Assembly (NCBI GenBank): GCA_028292435.1 | Contig: JAQGMI010000017.1 | Span: forward strand, 1 to 64,000 | Source: Betaproteobacteria bacterium | GTDB taxonomy: Bacteria > Pseudomonadota > Gammaproteobacteria > Burkholderiales > SG8-41 | DNA: 64,000 bases | Reading direction: 5' to 3' | Shown: positions 50,375 through 57,316 of the stretch, piece after piece | How positions within the stretch are numbered: the stretch's first letter is position 1 | Layout of the letters: every line of letters starts with the position of its first letter | Made by a program: the position numbers and the translations under genes | Notes under the pieces: model-generated | What the model was told of the DNA's origin: nothing | Seen by the model: only the letters and a program-made list of their open reading frames with translations | Databases searched by the model: none

Positions 50375-50415
50375 TTGGTGTGTCGTACTGGGATCGAACC
50401 AGTGGCCCCTGCCGT
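50375..50415 (-). repeat. Copy of the 3' part of tRNA-Val (possible att site, tRNA fragment)
   Basis: These 41 bp match 53359-53399, the 3' part of the complete tRNA-Val, at 40 positions. They run from the 3' side of the anticodon through the variable loop, T-arm, acceptor strand and CCA end. The 5' half is missing, so it is not a functional tRNA. The same orientation as the complete gene and the 2.98-kb spacing are the geometry left when an element integrates at a tRNA 3' end. Confidence 0.85.
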
Positions 50416-50954: not shown

Positions 50955-51239
50955 ATGTCAATCCATAAGCAAGCATTGAGTTCAGTCATAGCAATCGCCA
51001 TGGCAGGGGTGGCCTCTTTCGCCGTTGCCCAAGCGCCCGAGCAATCCGACAAGGCGCCTGTTCGTTTGACCGAAGCGCAGATGGAAAAAATCGTCGCAGG
51101 TGATTTCGTCGTCGACACGGCGGGCAACGGGAATCTGAGCCTGATTGCTACAGGGAACAGCATAAACAGCTGCAACAACGGGCAGTGCTATTGGGAGAAT
51201 CGAAATGGCAAGGAAATCGGTAAGCCCGTCGTATTCTGA
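50955..51239 (+). CDS. Small secreted precursor with double-glycine-like leader (94 aa)
   Basis: A 94-residue protein in three parts. Residues 1-25 form a Sec signal ending FAVA. Residues 38-49 (LTEAQMEKIVAG) follow the double-glycine leader pattern of C39-processed peptides: Leu -12, Met -7, Ile -4, Ala -2, Gly -1. The remaining 45-residue core (50-94) begins DFVVDTAGNGNLSLIATGNS, is Asn/Gly-rich like amyloid repeats, and has two Cys (73, 78) spaced for a small disulfide loop. The next gene encodes a C39 peptidase, the expected processor. A terminator follows the gene, which suggests it is made in excess over the peptidase. I recognise no named family. Confidence 0.8.
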   Translation: MSIHKQALSSVIAIAMAGVASFAVAQAPEQSDKAPVRLTEAQMEKIVAGDFVVDTAGNGNLSLIATGNSINSCNNGQCYWENRNGKEIGKPVVF

Positions 51240-51265
51240 GATCAGCAATTAGCATTTAAGCTTAC

Positions 51266-51293
51266 ACACACCCCTTCCCAGGGGTGTGTTTTT
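51266..51293 (+). terminator. Intra-operon terminator/attenuator
   Basis: A perfect 9-bp stem (ACACACCCC and GGGGTGTGT), a 6-base loop and a T5 run lie 26 bp after the precursor stop and just before the peptidase start. It should end most transcripts after the precursor, with limited read-through into the processing and export genes. Confidence 0.85.
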
Positions 51294-51296
51294 GAG

Positions 51297-51875
51297 GTGC
51301 CCGGATTGAACAAAAGCTTTGCTGTTCAGCGCTGGATTAATGCAATTGGTTGCATTGGCATGCTGTTATTCGCCGGCATGCAGGTCGCCGTGAGCGCCGA
51401 GTACGAGCGGAAGTTTTCGGTCACGTCGCTAAAAGAAATACGTGAGCGCGCCGTAGTCATGCAGCAGTGGGACAACAGTTGCGCTGCTGCAGCTTTAGCG
51501 ACGGTTTTGACCTATGGACTCGCCGACCCGGTGAGCGAGCGATACGTCGCGGCAAGAATGCTTGAAACCACCGACGCCCGGAAAGTGAAGACTCAGGGCG
51601 GGTTTTCCATGCTGGACATGAAGCGTTTCGTCGAAAGCCGCGGCTATGCGGTAGATGCGTTTCAGCATCTCTCCACCGACCAATTGGCGCTTTTCCGCGC
51701 GCCAATTGTTCCGATCAGGCCGTTCGGGAGCAATCATTATGTGGTGGTCAATTCGATCACCGAGGATGTGGTGCTGCTGGCGGATCCTGCATTCGGCAAC
51801 CGCTCGCTTACCCTGCGAGAATTCAAGGAAATGTGGTTTAACGGTCTCGCGTTCGTGATTGCAGAAGGTAAGTGA
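51297..51875 (+). CDS. Periplasmic C39 family peptidase (FapD-like)
   Basis: A roughly 190-residue peptidase with its own signal peptide (ending MQVAVSA) and no ABC transporter domains. The catalytic set is complete: oxyanion Gln57 and Cys62 in QQWDNSCAAAALATVL, His147 in FGSNHYVVV and Asp163 in LLADPAFG. The QxWDxSC(G/A)AAALATLL pattern is that of FapD, the stand-alone C39 protein of Fap amyloid operons, rather than of ABC-fused bacteriocin exporters. GTG 51297 has no ribosome site; TTG 51306, eight bases after GAGG, may be the true start. It overlaps no gene; the pore gene follows after one base. Confidence 0.85.
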   Translation: MPGLNKSFAVQRWINAIGCIGMLLFAGMQVAVSAEYERKFSVTSLKEIRERAVVMQQWDNSCAAAALATVLTYGLADPVSERYVAARMLETTDARKVKTQGGFSMLDMKRFVESRGYAVDAFQHLSTDQLALFRAPIVPIRPFGSNHYVVVNSITEDVVLLADPAFGNRSLTLREFKEMWFNGLAFVIAEGK

Positions 51876-51876
51876 T

Positions 51877-52920
51877 ATGCGCATCGGTAGCGCGGTTCTT
51901 TTCTTGGCATTGCTGCTCATAGCCAGCGCCGATGTGCAGGGTCAGGACAACGTCAACGAACTGCGCCAGCAACTCGAGGCGCAAAAAGCAATCAACGAAC
52001 AATTGATTCGACGGATACGTGAACTCGAAGCGCAAGCCGGAGGATCGCCTGTAGCTCCGCCCGGTCTGCGTGAGCGCATCGCAAAGTCAGGCGCCGGCGA
52101 TGACGTGTTGGACTTGCCGGAAACGACAACAGCAATACAGGAGGCGCTGGGCACTCGAGGTTTGGTGTTGTTGCCGGCGGGTTCGTATCGGGTTATCCCC
52201 GGCTTAAGCTGGGGACACACCGGTTCTGATTTCATCGGAACTCGAACTGATAGTTATGCGGCGAGTGTGACGATGCAGGCAGGGTTACCGTGGGATCTCA
52301 TGCTCACTGCGAGCGCACCTTATCTGCATCGCAGTACCAGCGCCGGTTCTAATAGCGGAATCTCAGACTGGTCCATCGGTCTTGCGAAGACGCTGACCGT
52401 TGAATCTGACGGGCGTCCGTCTGTCGTGGCGAGTGTGAACTATGTCGACAATAATGGTAGAACGCCGTTTGCGCAGGTCCCTATAGGCTATGGTTTTCCG
52501 GTAGCCGCAGGCAGACTTTCCGCCGTCAAGCGATTTGACCCCGTCGCAGTTTACGGCGACGTCTCATTCGCGCATCCCTTCGCGAGAGACGTGAGCGCGC
52601 CCAATCTTTTGGCCGAAGCGAATTTTGCCGGCCGTATTTCCCCGGGCAACACAATCAGCATCGGTGGCGGCGCGTCTCTCGCTGTAACGCCCGCCATCAA
52701 TTTTGATGCGGGCCTCTCAATGGCTTTCAAGCAGGGGGCAAGAATTCACTCGCGGGCGAACGGCGACTCCACGCAGCCTCGATCGACAATAGGGATGTTT
52801 ACCGCGGGTGCCGCATTCGTACTTAGTCGCCGACTATCGCTGATTCTGGGCGCCGGGACAGGTATAACGGCCGATGCGCCCGACTTCTTCTTTTCCGTCG
52901 CATTGCCATACCGCTTTTAA
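51877..52920 (+). CDS. Outer-membrane protein with N-terminal coiled coil (FapF-like)
   Basis: A 347-residue exported protein. The signal ends DVQGQ. Residues about 25-52 form a heptad-rich coiled coil (NVNELRQQLEAQKAINEQLI). About 290 residues of alternating strands follow, ending in a terminal aromatic (VALPYRF) as in outer-membrane barrels. A coiled coil before a barrel is the plan of FapF, the trimeric pore that exports Fap amyloid subunits. It starts one base after the peptidase stop. Function as the exporter of the small precursor is inferred from this order. An alternative is an unrelated porin-like transporter. Confidence 0.75.
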   Translation: MRIGSAVLFLALLLIASADVQGQDNVNELRQQLEAQKAINEQLIRRIRELEAQAGGSPVAPPGLRERIAKSGAGDDVLDLPETTTAIQEALGTRGLVLLPAGSYRVIPGLSWGHTGSDFIGTRTDSYAASVTMQAGLPWDLMLTASAPYLHRSTSAGSNSGISDWSIGLAKTLTVESDGRPSVVASVNYVDNNGRTPFAQVPIGYGFPVAAGRLSAVKRFDPVAVYGDVSFAHPFARDVSAPNLLAEANFAGRISPGNTISIGGGASLAVTPAINFDAGLSMAFKQGARIHSRANGDSTQPRSTIGMFTAGAAFVLSRRLSLILGAGTGITADAPDFFFSVALPYRF

Positions 52921-53359
52921 GAAATTTCACCGCGCAAATAGTCCAGTTATACGGCGGAGAGATGGTCAGCTTGCGGTCCGCGTTTTGCCTGGAGTCAGAT
53001 TCTGTGCTCGACGCACTTTGGAGAGCTTGGAAGTCTTGTAGGCCCCGCCGCGTCAGTAGCTCGATCGGTAGGGCTGGACACACTTTTTGCGTTCGGCCAA
53101 GTTAGTAGCATTATCGGCCTGCTTTTTGTCGAATATCTCGATGACTTGGCGCAGCGCGGATAGCGTTGGCCCGAGACGATCGGGCGCTAACGAGAAGTCA
53201 TTTCCGCCATATCGGAGAGTTGAGTTGTCCCCCGCGCAACGGCATTCATTGTCAGGTTTGCGGGCCGTTACTTGGTTTGTCGCATTGCCACGGCGCCTCC
53301 GTGTAATCTGCGATTTTCATACTCAGTTGGCTCAGGGTGGTCAACTGTTTGTTTTTTGT
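52921..53359. other. 439-bp stretch between the pore gene and tRNA-Val
   Basis: No confident gene. On the minus strand a frame of about 88 codons (53053-53316) is open but has no ATG, GTG or TTG near its start. It reads as plausible protein (LAPDRLGPTLSALRQVIEIF) and may be the remnant of a lost gene. The plus-strand frame at 53087-53428 runs antisense into the tRNA and is rejected. Confidence 0.45.
53053..53316 (-). pseudogene. Start-less open frame, possible gene remnant
   Basis: About 88 codons open from just after a TGA to TGA 53053-53055. It lacks any usual start codon until very late. Composition looks coding, with a helix-like tail (QVIEIFDKKQADNATNLAERK). It lies next to the tRNA end of the repeat-bounded segment, where an integrase or other element gene would be expected, but I see no integrase catalytic residues. 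Low confidence. Confidence 0.25.
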
Positions 53360-53434
53360 TGGTGGGTCGTACTGGGATCGAACCAGTGGCCCCTGCCGTG
53401 TGAAGGCAGTGCTCTACCGCTGAGCTAACGACCC
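53360..53434 (-). tRNA. tRNA-Val (anticodon CAC)
   Basis: A full cloverleaf on the minus strand: acceptor GGGTCGT/ACGACCC, D-arm GCTC...GAGC, anticodon stem CTGCC/GGCAG with loop TTCACAC (anticodon CAC, codon GUG), T-arm ACTGG-TTCGATC-CCAGT, discriminator A and an encoded CCA. Its 3' part is duplicated at 50375-50415, so it is the intact end of a probable insertion. Confidence 0.95.
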
Positions 53435-53645: not shown

Positions 53646-54329
53646 ATGTCATCGATTGATTCCACCTCCACCTCCACCTCGCCGAGGTCATTCTCTCGCT
53701 GCGTTGCTAACTGGCGTGAAACGGAAGGCAAGGGCGCCGAGAGCGAGCGCCAGCGAATCTCCCGCGACATTCACGACAGCACTATCCAGCCATACATTGG
53801 CCTGAAGTTCGCCCTCGAGGCATTGGCCCGTAAGGTCCCGCCCGACCATCCACTTGCCAAGGACATTGGAAAGCTCGTCGACATGACGACGATGGAGATC
53901 GCGGGCTTGCGGCGATACGTCAATGGACTGAAGGGCCAGCTCGGCGGTAAAGACGAGACGCTGGGTTCGATCCTGGAACAGAAGGCCGCCCGTTTCGCCG
54001 AAATTTTCAATATTAAGGTGAGCGTCGAGGTCGCGCAGGAGGGCAACGTCGAGAGTTGGCTTGCGGATGACATATGCCACATGATGGGCGAAGCGCTGAG
54101 CAACATCCGCCGTCATACGAACGCTCTTTTTGCGCGCGTCAGGCTGACGTGCGACAGCCGGATGCTCACGCTGGAGATCATCAATCCCCGCGATCGCGGC
54201 GTGGCGCTGCATATGTTTACGCCGCGCTCGATCGCCGAGCGCGCGCTCGCTTTAGGCGGGCGCTGCAAGGTGGAAACGGGCTCTGGTCGCTATACGGTAG
54301 TAATCATCGAAATACTGTTGCTACCCTGA
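53646..54329 (+). CDS. Sensorless NarX/DesK-type histidine kinase with degenerate ATP lid
   Basis: A 227-residue protein with no sensor or membrane domain. A low-complexity Ser/Thr start is followed directly by the HisKA_3 box ERQRISRDIHDSTIQPYIGLKF (His about 41) and a dimerisation helix pair. The ATPase-like part keeps an N-box (GEALSNIRRHTNA) but where DNGxG and GxGLxxM should be it reads NPRDRGVALHMFTPRSIAERALALGG. ATP binding is therefore doubtful; it may be a phosphatase or a partner-activated kinase. A TGA lies just upstream in frame, so this is not simply a missed longer start. The response regulator starts 10 bp downstream. Confidence 0.75.
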   Translation: MSSIDSTSTSTSPRSFSRCVANWRETEGKGAESERQRISRDIHDSTIQPYIGLKFALEALARKVPPDHPLAKDIGKLVDMTTMEIAGLRRYVNGLKGQLGGKDETLGSILEQKAARFAEIFNIKVSVEVAQEGNVESWLADDICHMMGEALSNIRRHTNALFARVRLTCDSRMLTLEIINPRDRGVALHMFTPRSIAERALALGGRCKVETGSGRYTVVIIEILLLP

Positions 54330-54339
54330 GCACTGTGAC

Positions 54340-55017
54340 ATGCAGCCCGGCGGAGCCGATGCAATCAGGGTATTTCTCGTCGACGACCATCCCACCATCC
54401 TGTGGGGGCTGGAGCGTCTGATCGAAACCGCCGAGCCGGCGATGGAAGTGGTTGGCCAGGCGTCAAGCAGCAGTGAATTGTTCGCGCGGGTGCCCGCCGT
54501 GAATCCCGATGTCATCGTGCTCGACCTCGATCTGAACGGCGAAAGTGGCCTCGACTGTCTGCCTAAGCTAAGCAAGCAAAGCGCGGCGCGCGTATTGGTG
54601 CTTACGGGAATCAGCGATCCGCTCCTGCACGAGAAAGCAGTGATGCAAGGCGCGCGCGGGGTCGTACACAAGCGCGAAGCAGCCACCATCATCCTTCGCG
54701 CCATCGAAAAGGTGCACCGCGGCGAAATTTGGCTAGACCGCAATTCGGTGGGACGCATTCTCAACGCGCTTGCGCGGGGACAAAGGGCCGATCCCGAAGC
54801 CGACAAGATCGCGGCGCTGACACCCAAGGAGCGGCATATCATTGCCATGCTCACGACGGAAAAGGGCGCCCGCAACAAGGTGATCGCCGACAAGCTGCAC
54901 ATGAGCGAGCACACCTTGCGCAATCATCTGACGACGATCTACAGCAAGCTGCAGGTCTCAGGTCGCCTCGAGCTCTATCTTTACGCCACGGGTCACCGGT
55001 TATCCGAGGCTCTTTGA
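54340..55017 (+). CDS. LuxR/NarL-family response regulator
   Basis: A 225-residue regulator: receiver 5-125 (FLVDDHPTILWGLERLIE, Asp in VIVLDLDLNGESG) and a C-terminal HTH (LTPKERHIIAMLTTEKGARNKVIADKLHMSEHTLRNHLTTIYSKL). It pairs with the kinase 10 bp upstream and lies directly before the Flp pilus locus, which it may control. The HTH has an unusual TTEKGARN insertion before helix 2. Confidence 0.9.
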   Translation: MQPGGADAIRVFLVDDHPTILWGLERLIETAEPAMEVVGQASSSSELFARVPAVNPDVIVLDLDLNGESGLDCLPKLSKQSAARVLVLTGISDPLLHEKAVMQGARGVVHKREAATIILRAIEKVHRGEIWLDRNSVGRILNALARGQRADPEADKIAALTPKERHIIAMLTTEKGARNKVIADKLHMSEHTLRNHLTTIYSKLQVSGRLELYLYATGHRLSEAL

Positions 55018-55525
55018 CGCCCCTTCTCTTGTAGTTCGCCCGACGCGGAAGGTGCGCCTAAGCCCACCGTCCAATTCCATTGGCATCGACGCATACATCG
55101 GCGCGCCCTGAATTCGCGTTTAGAACGCATGACAATTGTCCTCGCAAAAAAACGCATCTTCTCCCGTGCGGGCAGAGCGCAAGGCGGCTAGGCTAGCGCG
55201 TTTTTTTTAGTCGCGATGGAAACTCCGCCTCACACGCACGCTGAGGATCGGGTTCAGAACGAGCTCTGTGCGGGCGCCAATCGCTGGGACGGCTCATAAG
55301 ATATGACAGAGTCACGCCCGAGGCGACGGGACAAATGTCACTGACGCTTCTGCCAAGTCTCCCCCCAAAGTAAGGACTTTATTCAGATGTTTCCCTGGTG
55401 GCACGCCCCTAATCTGGCAGTGTGCTCCGCAAACTCTGACGTTGTAGTTTTGCTGCCGCCGAGGCGTGGGGTTACGGGTGGAGCACTAAAACGTTGTTTA
55501 ACTTTCAACTCCTCGAGGGAACGAT
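55018..55525. other. 508-bp regulatory gap before flp
   Basis: No gene is supported; short frames on both strands lack features. A GC-rich segment followed by eight T (55201-55208) could terminate the response-regulator transcript, but the stem is weak. The remaining 300 bp must hold the flp promoter; I found no convincing sigma-70 or sigma-54 match. Confidence 0.45.
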
Positions 55526-55756
55526 ATGAACCAAATGGACTTGTACAAAATGATGCTGGCACTCAAGAAAAGCGCCGTCGACTTTGGCCGTGACGAAGAA
55601 GGCGCGCAAATCGTCGAATACGGACTGATCATCGCAGTGGTGTCGATCGCTCTGGTCATCGCCTTGTCCGCTATCGCGGCCGGCGGCGGACCGTTCACAA
55701 ATTTCATCGCCCGTGTAACGACCTGCTTGACGGGTGCGGTCGGATCCTGCGTCTGA
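55526..55756 (+). CDS. flp: Flp family type IVb pilin
   Basis: A 76-residue major pilin. The type IVb processing site is clear: after DEEG, cleavage would leave AQIVEYGLIIAVVSIALVIAL, with the conserved Glu5-Tyr6 and a hydrophobic assembly helix. The C-terminus carries two Cys (TTCLTGAVGSCV), which may form a disulfide. GAGGGA precedes the ATG. It is the first gene of the Tad locus, and the prepilin peptidase follows at 87 bp. Confidence 0.93.
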   Translation: MNQMDLYKMMLALKKSAVDFGRDEEGAQIVEYGLIIAVVSIALVIALSAIAAGGGPFTNFIARVTTCLTGAVGSCV

Positions 55757-55843
55757 GGGTCGGAGCAGAAGCGTTTATCGCAACACCCGGGAAGCGGGGC
55801 ACCCGCCTCACTTCCCGCTCGTTACTCTCGTCAAAGGATATCC

Positions 55844-56434
55844 ATGCTTGACCCGGAACTAGCAGCAATGCTCGACCTGCTCGGCCGGTTGCTGCTGAAT
55901 GCCCGCACCGGGACGCTATTGGCATTGCTACTGTTGGCCGCTGTTTATGACTGTCGCTCGCACCGCATCCCGAACTGGTTGGTCGCGAGCGGAGCGGTGT
56001 ACGGCCTCATTTACACGACGGTCGCACCGCCGATAATGCACGGCACGGTTTTTTTCCCCTTAAGCGGACTTGCCGTCGGTTTTTCCTTGTTTTTTCCGCT
56101 CTACCTGCTACGCGCCATGGGCGCAGGCGACGTCAAGCTGCTGGCCATGACCGGCGCTTTTCTCGGGCCGCTCGATACGTTCTATTGCGCACTGGCAAGC
56201 GCGATTGCCGGCGGCGCACTGTCGCTCGTCTGGATTCTGTGGAACGGCAACGCGCCGCGGCTGCTGCAAAGCATAGTTTCGCTTGCTCAGTTCGGACCGG
56301 TCGGCGCAGTCGCAGGAGCGCCCGCTGGTTACGGGGTCTCGCCCAAAACTTCTCTGGGCAAGCTGCCCTATGCCGCCGCTATCGCCGTCGGCACAGGCGG
56401 CTATCTCTCACTTCATCAATTGGGCATGGTTTAA
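55844..56434 (+). CDS. cpaA: Prepilin peptidase TadV/CpaA
   Basis: A 196-residue membrane aspartic peptidase (A24 family) that trims Flp prepilin and the TadE/F pseudopilins. The two catalytic aspartates are in AVYDCRSHRIPN and MGAGDVKLLAM (GxGDxKL). About six helices. The product is longer than the minimal CpaA because of a C-terminal extension of about 40 residues (FGPVGAVAGAPAGYGVSPK onwards). Confidence 0.92.
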   Translation: MLDPELAAMLDLLGRLLLNARTGTLLALLLLAAVYDCRSHRIPNWLVASGAVYGLIYTTVAPPIMHGTVFFPLSGLAVGFSLFFPLYLLRAMGAGDVKLLAMTGAFLGPLDTFYCALASAIAGGALSLVWILWNGNAPRLLQSIVSLAQFGPVGAVAGAPAGYGVSPKTSLGKLPYAAAIAVGTGGYLSLHQLGMV

Positions 56435-56449
56435 AGGAAGGATGTGTTC

Positions 56450-57316
56450 ATGAAAAACGCACGTGCGGCAATCATGCTGGTTATATCGATTGTGCTGGGT
56501 TTGGCAGTAACTGCGCTCGCAGTTGTATGGGTATCGCAAAAAGCCGCGGTTGCGTCGAACAAGGTAGCGGTTGCCGCCGTCGATATCGAACTCGGCAGCC
56601 GGCTAAACGCCCAAATGCTGAAAGTCGTCGACTGGCCGAGCGGCTCGCTGCCCACCGGTGGTTTTGACGATATGAAAACGTTGCAGGATCGCGTCGTGCG
56701 GACTTCAATTCAGCGCGGTGAGGCGATCTTGAATTCAAAGCTCGCTCCCGAAGGAACGCAGGGCGGGCTTTCTGCGGTTATCGCAGAGGGCAAGCGCGCC
56801 ATGACGGTGCGCGTGAACGACGTAGTCGGGGTCGCCGGCTTTGCTTTGCCCGGAAATTATGTTGACGTCATGGTAAATTTTCAACAGGACGCGCCTGGAG
56901 GGAAGGGTGCCGATGAAAAGCAGCACATCAGTAAAACGGTGCTTACGCACGTCCTCGTGCTGGCAGTGGCACAGGAGGCGAGCCGCGATGACACCAAGCC
57001 AAAGGTCGTCAATGCGGTGACGCTTGAGCTGTCACTCGCGGACGCTGAGAAGCTCGATCTCGCGCGCAATATTGGCACGTTGTCTCTCGTCTTGCGAAAC
57101 CAGATCGACCAGGGAAATGCGACGACTGTCGGGGTGCGCAAGTCTGATTTGCTCGGTGAATCGGTGCGGCCGGCGGTCGCCATCACTCGCCCGGCTTCGC
57201 CGCGACCCACTATCCGCACGGAAGCCGCGGCGGCCCAAGTTCCAATGGCCGACAAATCGAAAGTCGAAGTGATCCGCGGAGTGCAAAAATCTCGCGCCGA
57301 TCTCGACTTGCTGTGA
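56450..57316 (+). CDS. cpaB: Flp pilus assembly protein CpaB/RcpC
   Basis: A 288-residue protein with one N-terminal TM helix (AAIMLVISIVLGLAVTALAVVWV) and a SAF/beta-clip domain (VAAVDIELGSRLNAQMLKVVDWP). It then has AMTVRVNDVVGVAGFALPGNYVDVMV, the CpaB/RcpC signature. It acts in the periplasm around the secretin. I use ATG 56450, eight bases after AGGAAGG, instead of GTG 56444. Confidence 0.92.
   Translation: MKNARAAIMLVISIVLGLAVTALAVVWVSQKAAVASNKVAVAAVDIELGSRLNAQMLKVVDWPSGSLPTGGFDDMKTLQDRVVRTSIQRGEAILNSKLAPEGTQGGLSAVIAEGKRAMTVRVNDVVGVAGFALPGNYVDVMVNFQQDAPGGKGADEKQHISKTVLTHVLVLAVAQEASRDDTKPKVVNAVTLELSLADAEKLDLARNIGTLSLVLRNQIDQGNATTVGVRKSDLLGESVRPAVAITRPASPRPTIRTEAAAAQVPMADKSKVEVIRGVQKSRADLDLL

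Follow-up and report, generated by a model that had tools for sequence, protein, structure and literature searches.

The closest described relatives of the locus reported here are systems in which a signal-bearing C39 peptidase is paired with a FapF-type outer-membrane pore. In the Fap system of Pseudomonas the peptidase FapD has the C39 catalytic set, the pore FapF has 12 strands with a coiled coil and a plug, the genes lie close together and the products are large repeat amyloids. According to the available text of PMC5557850 the active Cys of FapD is needed for secretion, and the target of FapD is called unclear. Homologues of fapD and fapF are co-located in five further phyla outside Fap operons, and no small precursor or leader motif is named for these pairs in the accessible part of that report (PMC6173800). 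The nap island of N. gonorrhoeae is small and horizontally acquired and combines small peptides with GG-type leaders (NapA-C), a C39 peptidase (NapP) and a FapF homologue (NapF), and periplasmic cleavage has been proposed for it (PMC11798529, in the portion available). The C39 peptidase also adjoins a FapF-type barrel in the Fil system of Acinetobacter (FilA, FilB, FilC). Here we describe a locus at positions 50955–52920 of a 64,000-nucleotide stretch from Betaproteobacteria bacterium (assembly GCA_028292435.1, contig JAQGMI010000017.1, positions 1 to 64,000), below called the window. Its three genes are a real, coherent unit, a variant of the FapD/FapF kind whose nearest functional parallel is the nap island, which gives the architecture a precedent, and the unit is probably a compact two-step system for peptide export.

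The unit is made up of three open reading frames (ORFs) on the plus strand, in the order and at the positions given in a first-pass annotation of the sequence: a precursor of 94 aa (50955–51239), a FapD-related C39 peptidase of 192 aa with a GTG start and an N-terminal signal or anchor (51297–51875), and a FapF-related outer-membrane pore of 347 aa from its ATG (51877–52920). Signal peptides were called by eye and with a crude script, and for the precursor the translation points by eye to residues 1–25, MSIHKQALSSVIAIAMAGVASFAVA (50955–51029). A double-glycine-type leader, LTEAQMEKIVAG, occupies residues 38–49 (51066–51101), where it had been placed before, with a predicted cut after G49 and with a matching motif in 19 precursors of the class-A loci defined below. 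By translation and core comparison the predicted mature peptide (51102–51236) has 45 aa, two Cys and a calculated isoelectric point (pI) of 4.8. The core had been described as Asn/Gly-rich; its length and two cysteines agree, but the richness in Asn is only moderate (N+Q 20%, G+S 20%), and no GN-type repeats of the Fap kind were seen in it. No family in Pfam, NCBIfam (best value 0.69, over residues 4–39), PADLOC or PHROGs matches the precursor, and related loci contain positional equivalents of it. In contrast to the Pseudomonas operons, FapA, FapB, FapC and FapE are absent next to the unit as far as the ORFs can be read, and a single 94-aa precursor stands in place of the large repeat amyloids. 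The Fil system differs in its large FilA cargo and in a FadL-like gene downstream (by eye).

The peptidase matches Peptidase_C39 of Pfam (PF03412) with 3.5e-15 and 56.5 bits, above the cut-off of 22, and the residues Q56, C62, H147 and D163, which the first-pass annotation had read as an intact catalytic set, are invariant in six aligned peptidases including that of the window. It also matches the NCBIfam families C39_FapD (96.7 bits, 1.2e-27) and FilB (91.9 bits, 4.4e-26), in both cases below the cut-offs of 330 and 475 bits. The motif QxWDxSC, read as QQWDNSC in the window, had been taken as typical of FapD in general; this does not hold, as Pseudomonas FapD has QKTDFSC, and the Trp, present in five of the six nearest peptidases, is missing in two class-A loci (L155 and L156). 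AlphaFold models of peptidase and barrel were built on six-sequence alignments. The peptidase model (mean predicted local distance difference test, pLDDT, 79.5) is closest to the peptidase domains of PCAT1 and ComA with a best E value of 6e-7, and its pLDDT is below 50 at residues 1–3 and 40–59, the start of the catalytic motif included. The C39 fold is thus shared with those ATP-binding cassette (ABC) exporters, but the window peptidase is free-standing, no ABC domain was found in its 192 aa with Pfam, and export of the precursor looks Sec-type and not ABC-type. PHROGs gave only a weak match of the peptidase to an ABC-transporter family (C39, 9e-4), and PADLOC gave no match. The C39 domains of ABC exporters act on double-glycine leaders with hydrophobic residues at -12, -7 and -4, Q or E at -8, a small residue at -2 and Gly at -1. 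The register of the double-glycine-type leader is shared with class II microcins.

The barrel follows the FapF plan, as had been proposed. Its model (mean pLDDT 75.8; below 50 at residues 1–6, 12–24, 56–82, 196–205 and 242–248) has a long helix at 22–55, corresponding to a coiled coil behind the signal peptide, a short plug helix at 86–93 and 12 long strands, and its 18 best matches in the PDB are all FapF chains (E values 1e-19 to 1e-17). In profile searches it matches NCBIfam FapF with 71.7 bits (4.9e-20), short of the cut-off of 700 bits, and FilC with 1.2e-5, and the match to the FapF crystal sequences is 5e-13. Peptidase and barrel therefore fall in the expected families, far below the equivalog cut-offs of FapD and FapF. 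The pore is rare among close relatives: at 1e-10 it was found in three of 74 genomes of the window's family, one of them the source genome itself, and the 14 remaining genomes of the genus gave no match. In sampled genomes the peptidase profile at 1e-25 has hits in 40 out of 369 from the window's class and in 19 of 337 from the class of a Ruegeria genome (G077), and at 1e-20 in two of the 248 genomes of that Ruegeria's family.

Genome contigs were scanned with the peptidase, and the 80 best of 570 confirmed stretches were kept. The window's order of a short precursor, a peptidase and a pore recurs in three of the four nearest relatives among them (L008–L010), and it is repeated in G035, which belongs to the window's family (L005/L152). 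In the remaining near relative, L007, peptidase and pore are present, and a precursor with the leader is encoded on the opposite strand ~2.5 kb past the pore. Class A was defined by a peptidase score of at least 165 bits and an adjacent pore gene on the same strand, giving 17 loci in 16 genomes; L157, which reaches a contig end and has no pore, and L006, a pore only at a contig edge, were kept out. Adjacency of peptidase and pore alone is found also in L028, L054, L057, L071, L086, L169 and L171, and five of these make up a separate clade. A tree with 52 rows (the 17 class-A peptidases, 31 of 91 other loci and four of six canonical FapD) has the class-A peptidases on one side of a branch with support 99/95, and the canonical FapD and the peptidases of the other operons fall outside. 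When NapP and two plasmid peptidases were added, 15 class-A peptidases grouped again with 100/98 (this tree omits L160, L148 and five more), with NapP outside at 33% identity, although the program issued a long-branch warning for NapP and the other added rows. A class-A clade apart from Pseudomonas FapD and Neisseria NapP is therefore well supported by the peptidase sequences. One genome (G971) holds two class-A copies, L159 and L160, whose precursor cores are 92% alike.

A precursor with the strict leader motif lies directly upstream and on the same strand in 12 of the 17 class-A loci, and counting a variant in L158 (VARG), one to four short Sec-type precursors are found there in 13, with three in tandem in L146 and four in L147. 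Two further loci (L007 and L156) have a precursor nearby on the opposite strand. The leader consensus in class A is approximately [LM][ST]xA[QE][ML]DxVxAG. Among 19 precursors the 12-residue motif has a mean pairwise identity of 0.52, a value inflated because the motif served for selection, and the cores have 0.19 against 0.16 for shuffled cores. Most of the cores cannot be aligned with one another; their lengths range from 17 to 93 aa, composition is not common to the cores, and of the five core pairs above 0.4 identity four are within L149/L159/L160 and L146a/b. A leader that is kept in front of a core that varies, predicted for homologues by the first-pass annotation, was accordingly seen in the relatives. 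Three of the relatives' precursors have no Pfam match and four have no NCBIfam match above the cut-off.

The leader is also concentrated around the peptidases. In 108 FapD loci, 37 exported ORFs with the motif lie at most 2.5 kb from the peptidase and none beyond, and after removal of four duplicate loci 35 ORFs remain in the 500 kb close to the peptidases, each on the strand of its peptidase, versus 0 in 575 kb far, a split that is limited as a probability since the loci are related and the rule was shaped by examples. These 35 comprise 16 in class-A loci and 19 in the others. A DNA pattern for the leader matched once in the 5.17-Mb genome of the window, at the window precursor, with 0 matches for the reversed control. 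Of 13 matches of a related pattern in the 369 genomes of the window's class, four are in exported precursors, all beside peptidase-pore pairs (three in G496, one in G571), and nine are in ORFs without a recognizable signal peptide before the motif. Such a leader might be expected to be common in unrelated small exported proteins, but pattern searches of the own genome and of 369 genomes did not bear this out; the patterns require exact codons and miss variants, so orphan precursors may still exist.

From these comparisons, which give the mechanism good support, the precursor would be taken to the periplasm via Sec with removal of its signal peptide, the periplasmic C39 peptidase should then recognize the leader in the manner of the C39 domains of ABC exporters and cut after Gly49, and the peptide of ~45 aa would leave through the FapF-type pore, presumably gated by the coiled coil and the plug helix as the likeness to FapF suggests. 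Leader, peptidase and pore would be the shared parts, and the core a lineage-specific cargo. We regard this compact export unit as the probable reading, and it is to this extent that we infer cleavage, secretion and a function of the product in class A.

Several observations count against it. In L155, and in L154 with only 534 bp of upstream sequence, no precursor was found, and the near/far rule is passed by only 12 of the 17 class-A and 19 of the 87 other deduplicated loci; the motif behind that rule was defined after examples had been seen, the rule was tuned on them, and the genomes are related. The leader of the window ends in AG and not GG. In six further genomes the leader DNA pattern matched only G075 (once at the unit and once in an unrelated long ORF; reversed control 1) and missed the known precursors of G035, G074, G076 and G077, so that one of five genomes with known precursors was matched and the pattern must be called insensitive. 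The total of 13 matches for the related pattern is not far above the seven of its reversed control, and this pattern misses the window's own leader, which is a Glu variant. Furthermore, the coiled-coil stretch is missing from the pore of L005/L152, and the source assembly has an estimated contamination of 8%.

The alternative that survives best is that of a minimal Fap relative with the same machinery, whose small product forms short fibres of the amyloid or matrix type, and we consider this possible but doubtful. The nearest machinery is indeed amyloid machinery, several cores (L152, L147 and L146) are rich in Asn, Gly or Tyr or are repetitive, and the larger FapD operons encode proteins with stretches resembling VIQNxxNNxxIQ. 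The absence of Fap-type repeats from the window core and the divergence of the cores in composition, length and identity speak against this alternative. Of the overall reading in the first-pass annotation, the Fap-type peptidase and pore, the association of the genes and the kept leader with its varying core stand, but an amyloid subunit as the product does not follow, as the cores have no common chemistry. Two results that would have contradicted that annotation, unrelated families for peptidase or barrel and peptidases regularly lacking a neighbouring precursor with the leader, were not obtained.

Export could also be the same and the peptide act like a bacteriocin or lyse its own cell, as proposed for napABC, and we find this unlikely, somewhat more so than fibres. 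The first-pass annotation overlooked the published nap island, which has the same three functions in a similar 3-kb island (PMC11798529, available portion), and relatives of the C39 gene occur in E. coli and Acinetobacter on small plasmids that can be mobilized. The two systems nevertheless differ in several respects. The peptidases belong to different clades, with the reservation on long branches given above; the window precursor has a Sec-type signal, an AG leader and a setting in a tRNA-bounded segment, whereas the words "signal peptide" occur 0 times in the Nap paper (PMC11798529); and the window core is acidic (pI 4.8), whereas mature Naps are cationic with a pI of 9–10.1 according to the same text. 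Counterparts of napI, napR and napH were not recognized at the window, nor was a candidate for immunity, for which no specific search was made, and the four other ORFs of the segment have no Pfam match. Within the reading as an export unit we lean slightly towards a surface or matrix peptide rather than an antagonistic one.

That the peptidase cuts another protein, for example the linker of the pore, and that the precursor is not its target, seems improbable: Rouse et al. consider that the linker of FapF might be cleaved (PMC5557850, in the text available), but this would leave unexplained why precursors with unrelated cores have a C39-type leader in common. Chance neighbourhood, or a small ORF that is not a gene, can be dismissed as very improbable, since the lack of a family for the precursor and of phmmer relatives among the first 86 loci outside its own locus is outweighed by the same-leader precursors directly upstream in 11 other class-A loci under the strict rule, by the near/far split, by the single pattern match in the own genome and by the hairpin described below.

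The leader of class A extends in modified form to the larger FapD operons. The 19 exported proteins with the motif in the other FapD loci mostly read L[ST]xxELxxLRGGF, and eight such LRGG proteins aligned to five FapE of canonical fap operons with an hhalign E value of 8.8e-9 over 48 columns covering the signal, the leader and the first mature residues. A degenerate double-glycine leader of the form E[LM]A-x-[LM]RG[RK]Y is kept in all six FapE examined (L220–L225), and in FapA a site LSDxD[IF]xx[IV]xSG is present in four of the six canonical operons and LGDADFARVSGG in one, with no leader-like site found in FapA of L225. The likeness of the L[ST]xxELxxLRGG proteins to FapE, together with LRG[RK] in Pseudomonas FapE, indicates that FapE, perhaps also FapA, is a likely substrate of FapD, and the larger FapD operons probably work by this leader logic too. 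In the available text of PMC5557850 FapE alone had no peptides in its first ~70 residues in mass spectrometry, which was read as complete N-terminal processing, and the FapE site fits these data. The FapA site conflicts with them, as peptides of FapA to FapD covered the whole chain and were read as no processing, which disfavours FapA as a substrate; this, and the Arg or Lys at position -1 of FapE, tell against extending the code. No FapD site is named in the FapD and FapE passages of two later Fap papers (PMC11787515, PMC12392863).

Taken together, the two sets of observations could describe a Gram-negative pathway of Sec export followed by double-glycine cleavage, in which a leader code read by a periplasmic C39 peptidase directs peptides to a FapF-type pore; its minimal version on a tRNA island would act as an all-purpose dispenser of short, hypervariable peptides, and that code, eroded to LRG[RK] in FapE and SG in FapA, would be the missing recognition signal of FapD in the secretion of biofilm amyloid. 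We offer this wider reading tentatively, giving it a little less than an even chance. On either scale class A would be the simplest system to show what a FapD-type peptidase cuts and whether cutting opens the pore, and the comparison of leaders names exact candidate sites in both FapE and FapA. Class A further contributes a group of small and variable peptides that are exported and have no family annotation, and it might supply a two-gene export tool for short peptides. No description of the class-A system was found in a literature search that had subscription papers and preprints largely outside its scope and saw some sources in part. The tRNA-bounded, island-like setting is new in this analysis, and the varied cargo behind a kept leader hints at the target of a long-puzzling biofilm protease.

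An intact tRNA-Val(cac) gene is located downstream of the unit on the minus strand (53360–53434; ARAGORN, Rfam tRNA 68.5 bits). A copy of its 3' end (53359–53399) is found at 50375–50415 with 40 of 41 nucleotides identical and a spacing of 2984, placing the unit in a 3.0-kb segment with att-like ends, a feature that had escaped the first-pass annotation. The 30-nt core of the repeat occurs twice in the window against a mean of 0.00 in shuffled sequences. The segment with its three genes thus looks like an island; no integrase was detected with Pfam among the three genes and the four other ORFs of the segment. When the genus was searched with a 1031-nt query that starts at the tRNA, 13 of its 15 genomes matched, and in 12, the source genome among them, the match covers the tRNA; stretches at tRNA-Val were taken from nine genus genomes, in none of which the window genes from beyond the tRNA were found. 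In G039 (L202) the intact tRNA has, at a distance of ~40 bp, a solute-receptor gene whose family and orientation agree with those of the receptor gene upstream of the left repeat in the window. The three genes are missing there, and this may be an empty site, with the limits that the receptor identity is only 38% and that two other receptors there match better. In G047 (L201, 3370–8638) an element of ~5 kb with a tyrosine integrase (PF00589, 3.3e-9) lies between the same tRNA-Val and a partial repeat of 29 nt. No tRNA gene was found beside the 17 other loci scanned (16 of class A and L151, in stretches of 6.5–13 kb), so the tRNA setting is seen in the window copy only. Direct repeats flank the three genes in L009 (2074–2306 and 5169–5404, 72–81%) and in L010 (1646–1945 and 7665–7964, 93%).

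Between the precursor and peptidase genes there is a hairpin of 10 perfect pairs followed by TTTT (51266–51293, plus strand), with -18.2 kcal/mol and a z-score of -5.25, and none of 200 shuffles was as good. Ten of the 13 loci with an upstream precursor were checked, and seven have a perfect stem of 10–16 bp after the precursor; in L010, L153 and L160 no stem exceeds 5 bp, the stem of L149 falls within the longest reading of the peptidase ORF, and T's do not follow every stem. The hairpin would fit a terminator or a 3' stabilizer that yields more precursor than machinery. Counts of promoters and terminators showed no excess over shuffled sequences.

Some further loci carry related arrangements. 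The plasmids pSCU-111-4 of E. coli (L087) and pTR11_4 of Acinetobacter (L228) combine a gene for a signal-bearing C39 peptidase with one for a small protein that is exported or rich in Gly and with a barrel-like gene or a fragment of one, the barrel of L087 having only 2 bits with the pore profile and the pTR11_4 peptidase grouping with NapP (99/99); these are possible Nap-like cassettes on mobilizable plasmids. In the 6.5-kb Acidithiobacillus plasmid p5 (L088, 634–2173) a C39 peptidase in two frames precedes an exported protein that by eye resembles FapE. FilA of L227 (1681–2520) contains MDDAALSAATGQDG behind its signal peptide, akin to a TGREG stretch in small proteins of other FapD operons and a possible FilB site. 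Beyond the tRNA, at 53646–57316, the window encodes a histidine kinase and a LuxR-type regulator, after which come a pilin of the Flp/Fap type, narrowly below the Pfam cut-off, and apparent tad pilus genes.

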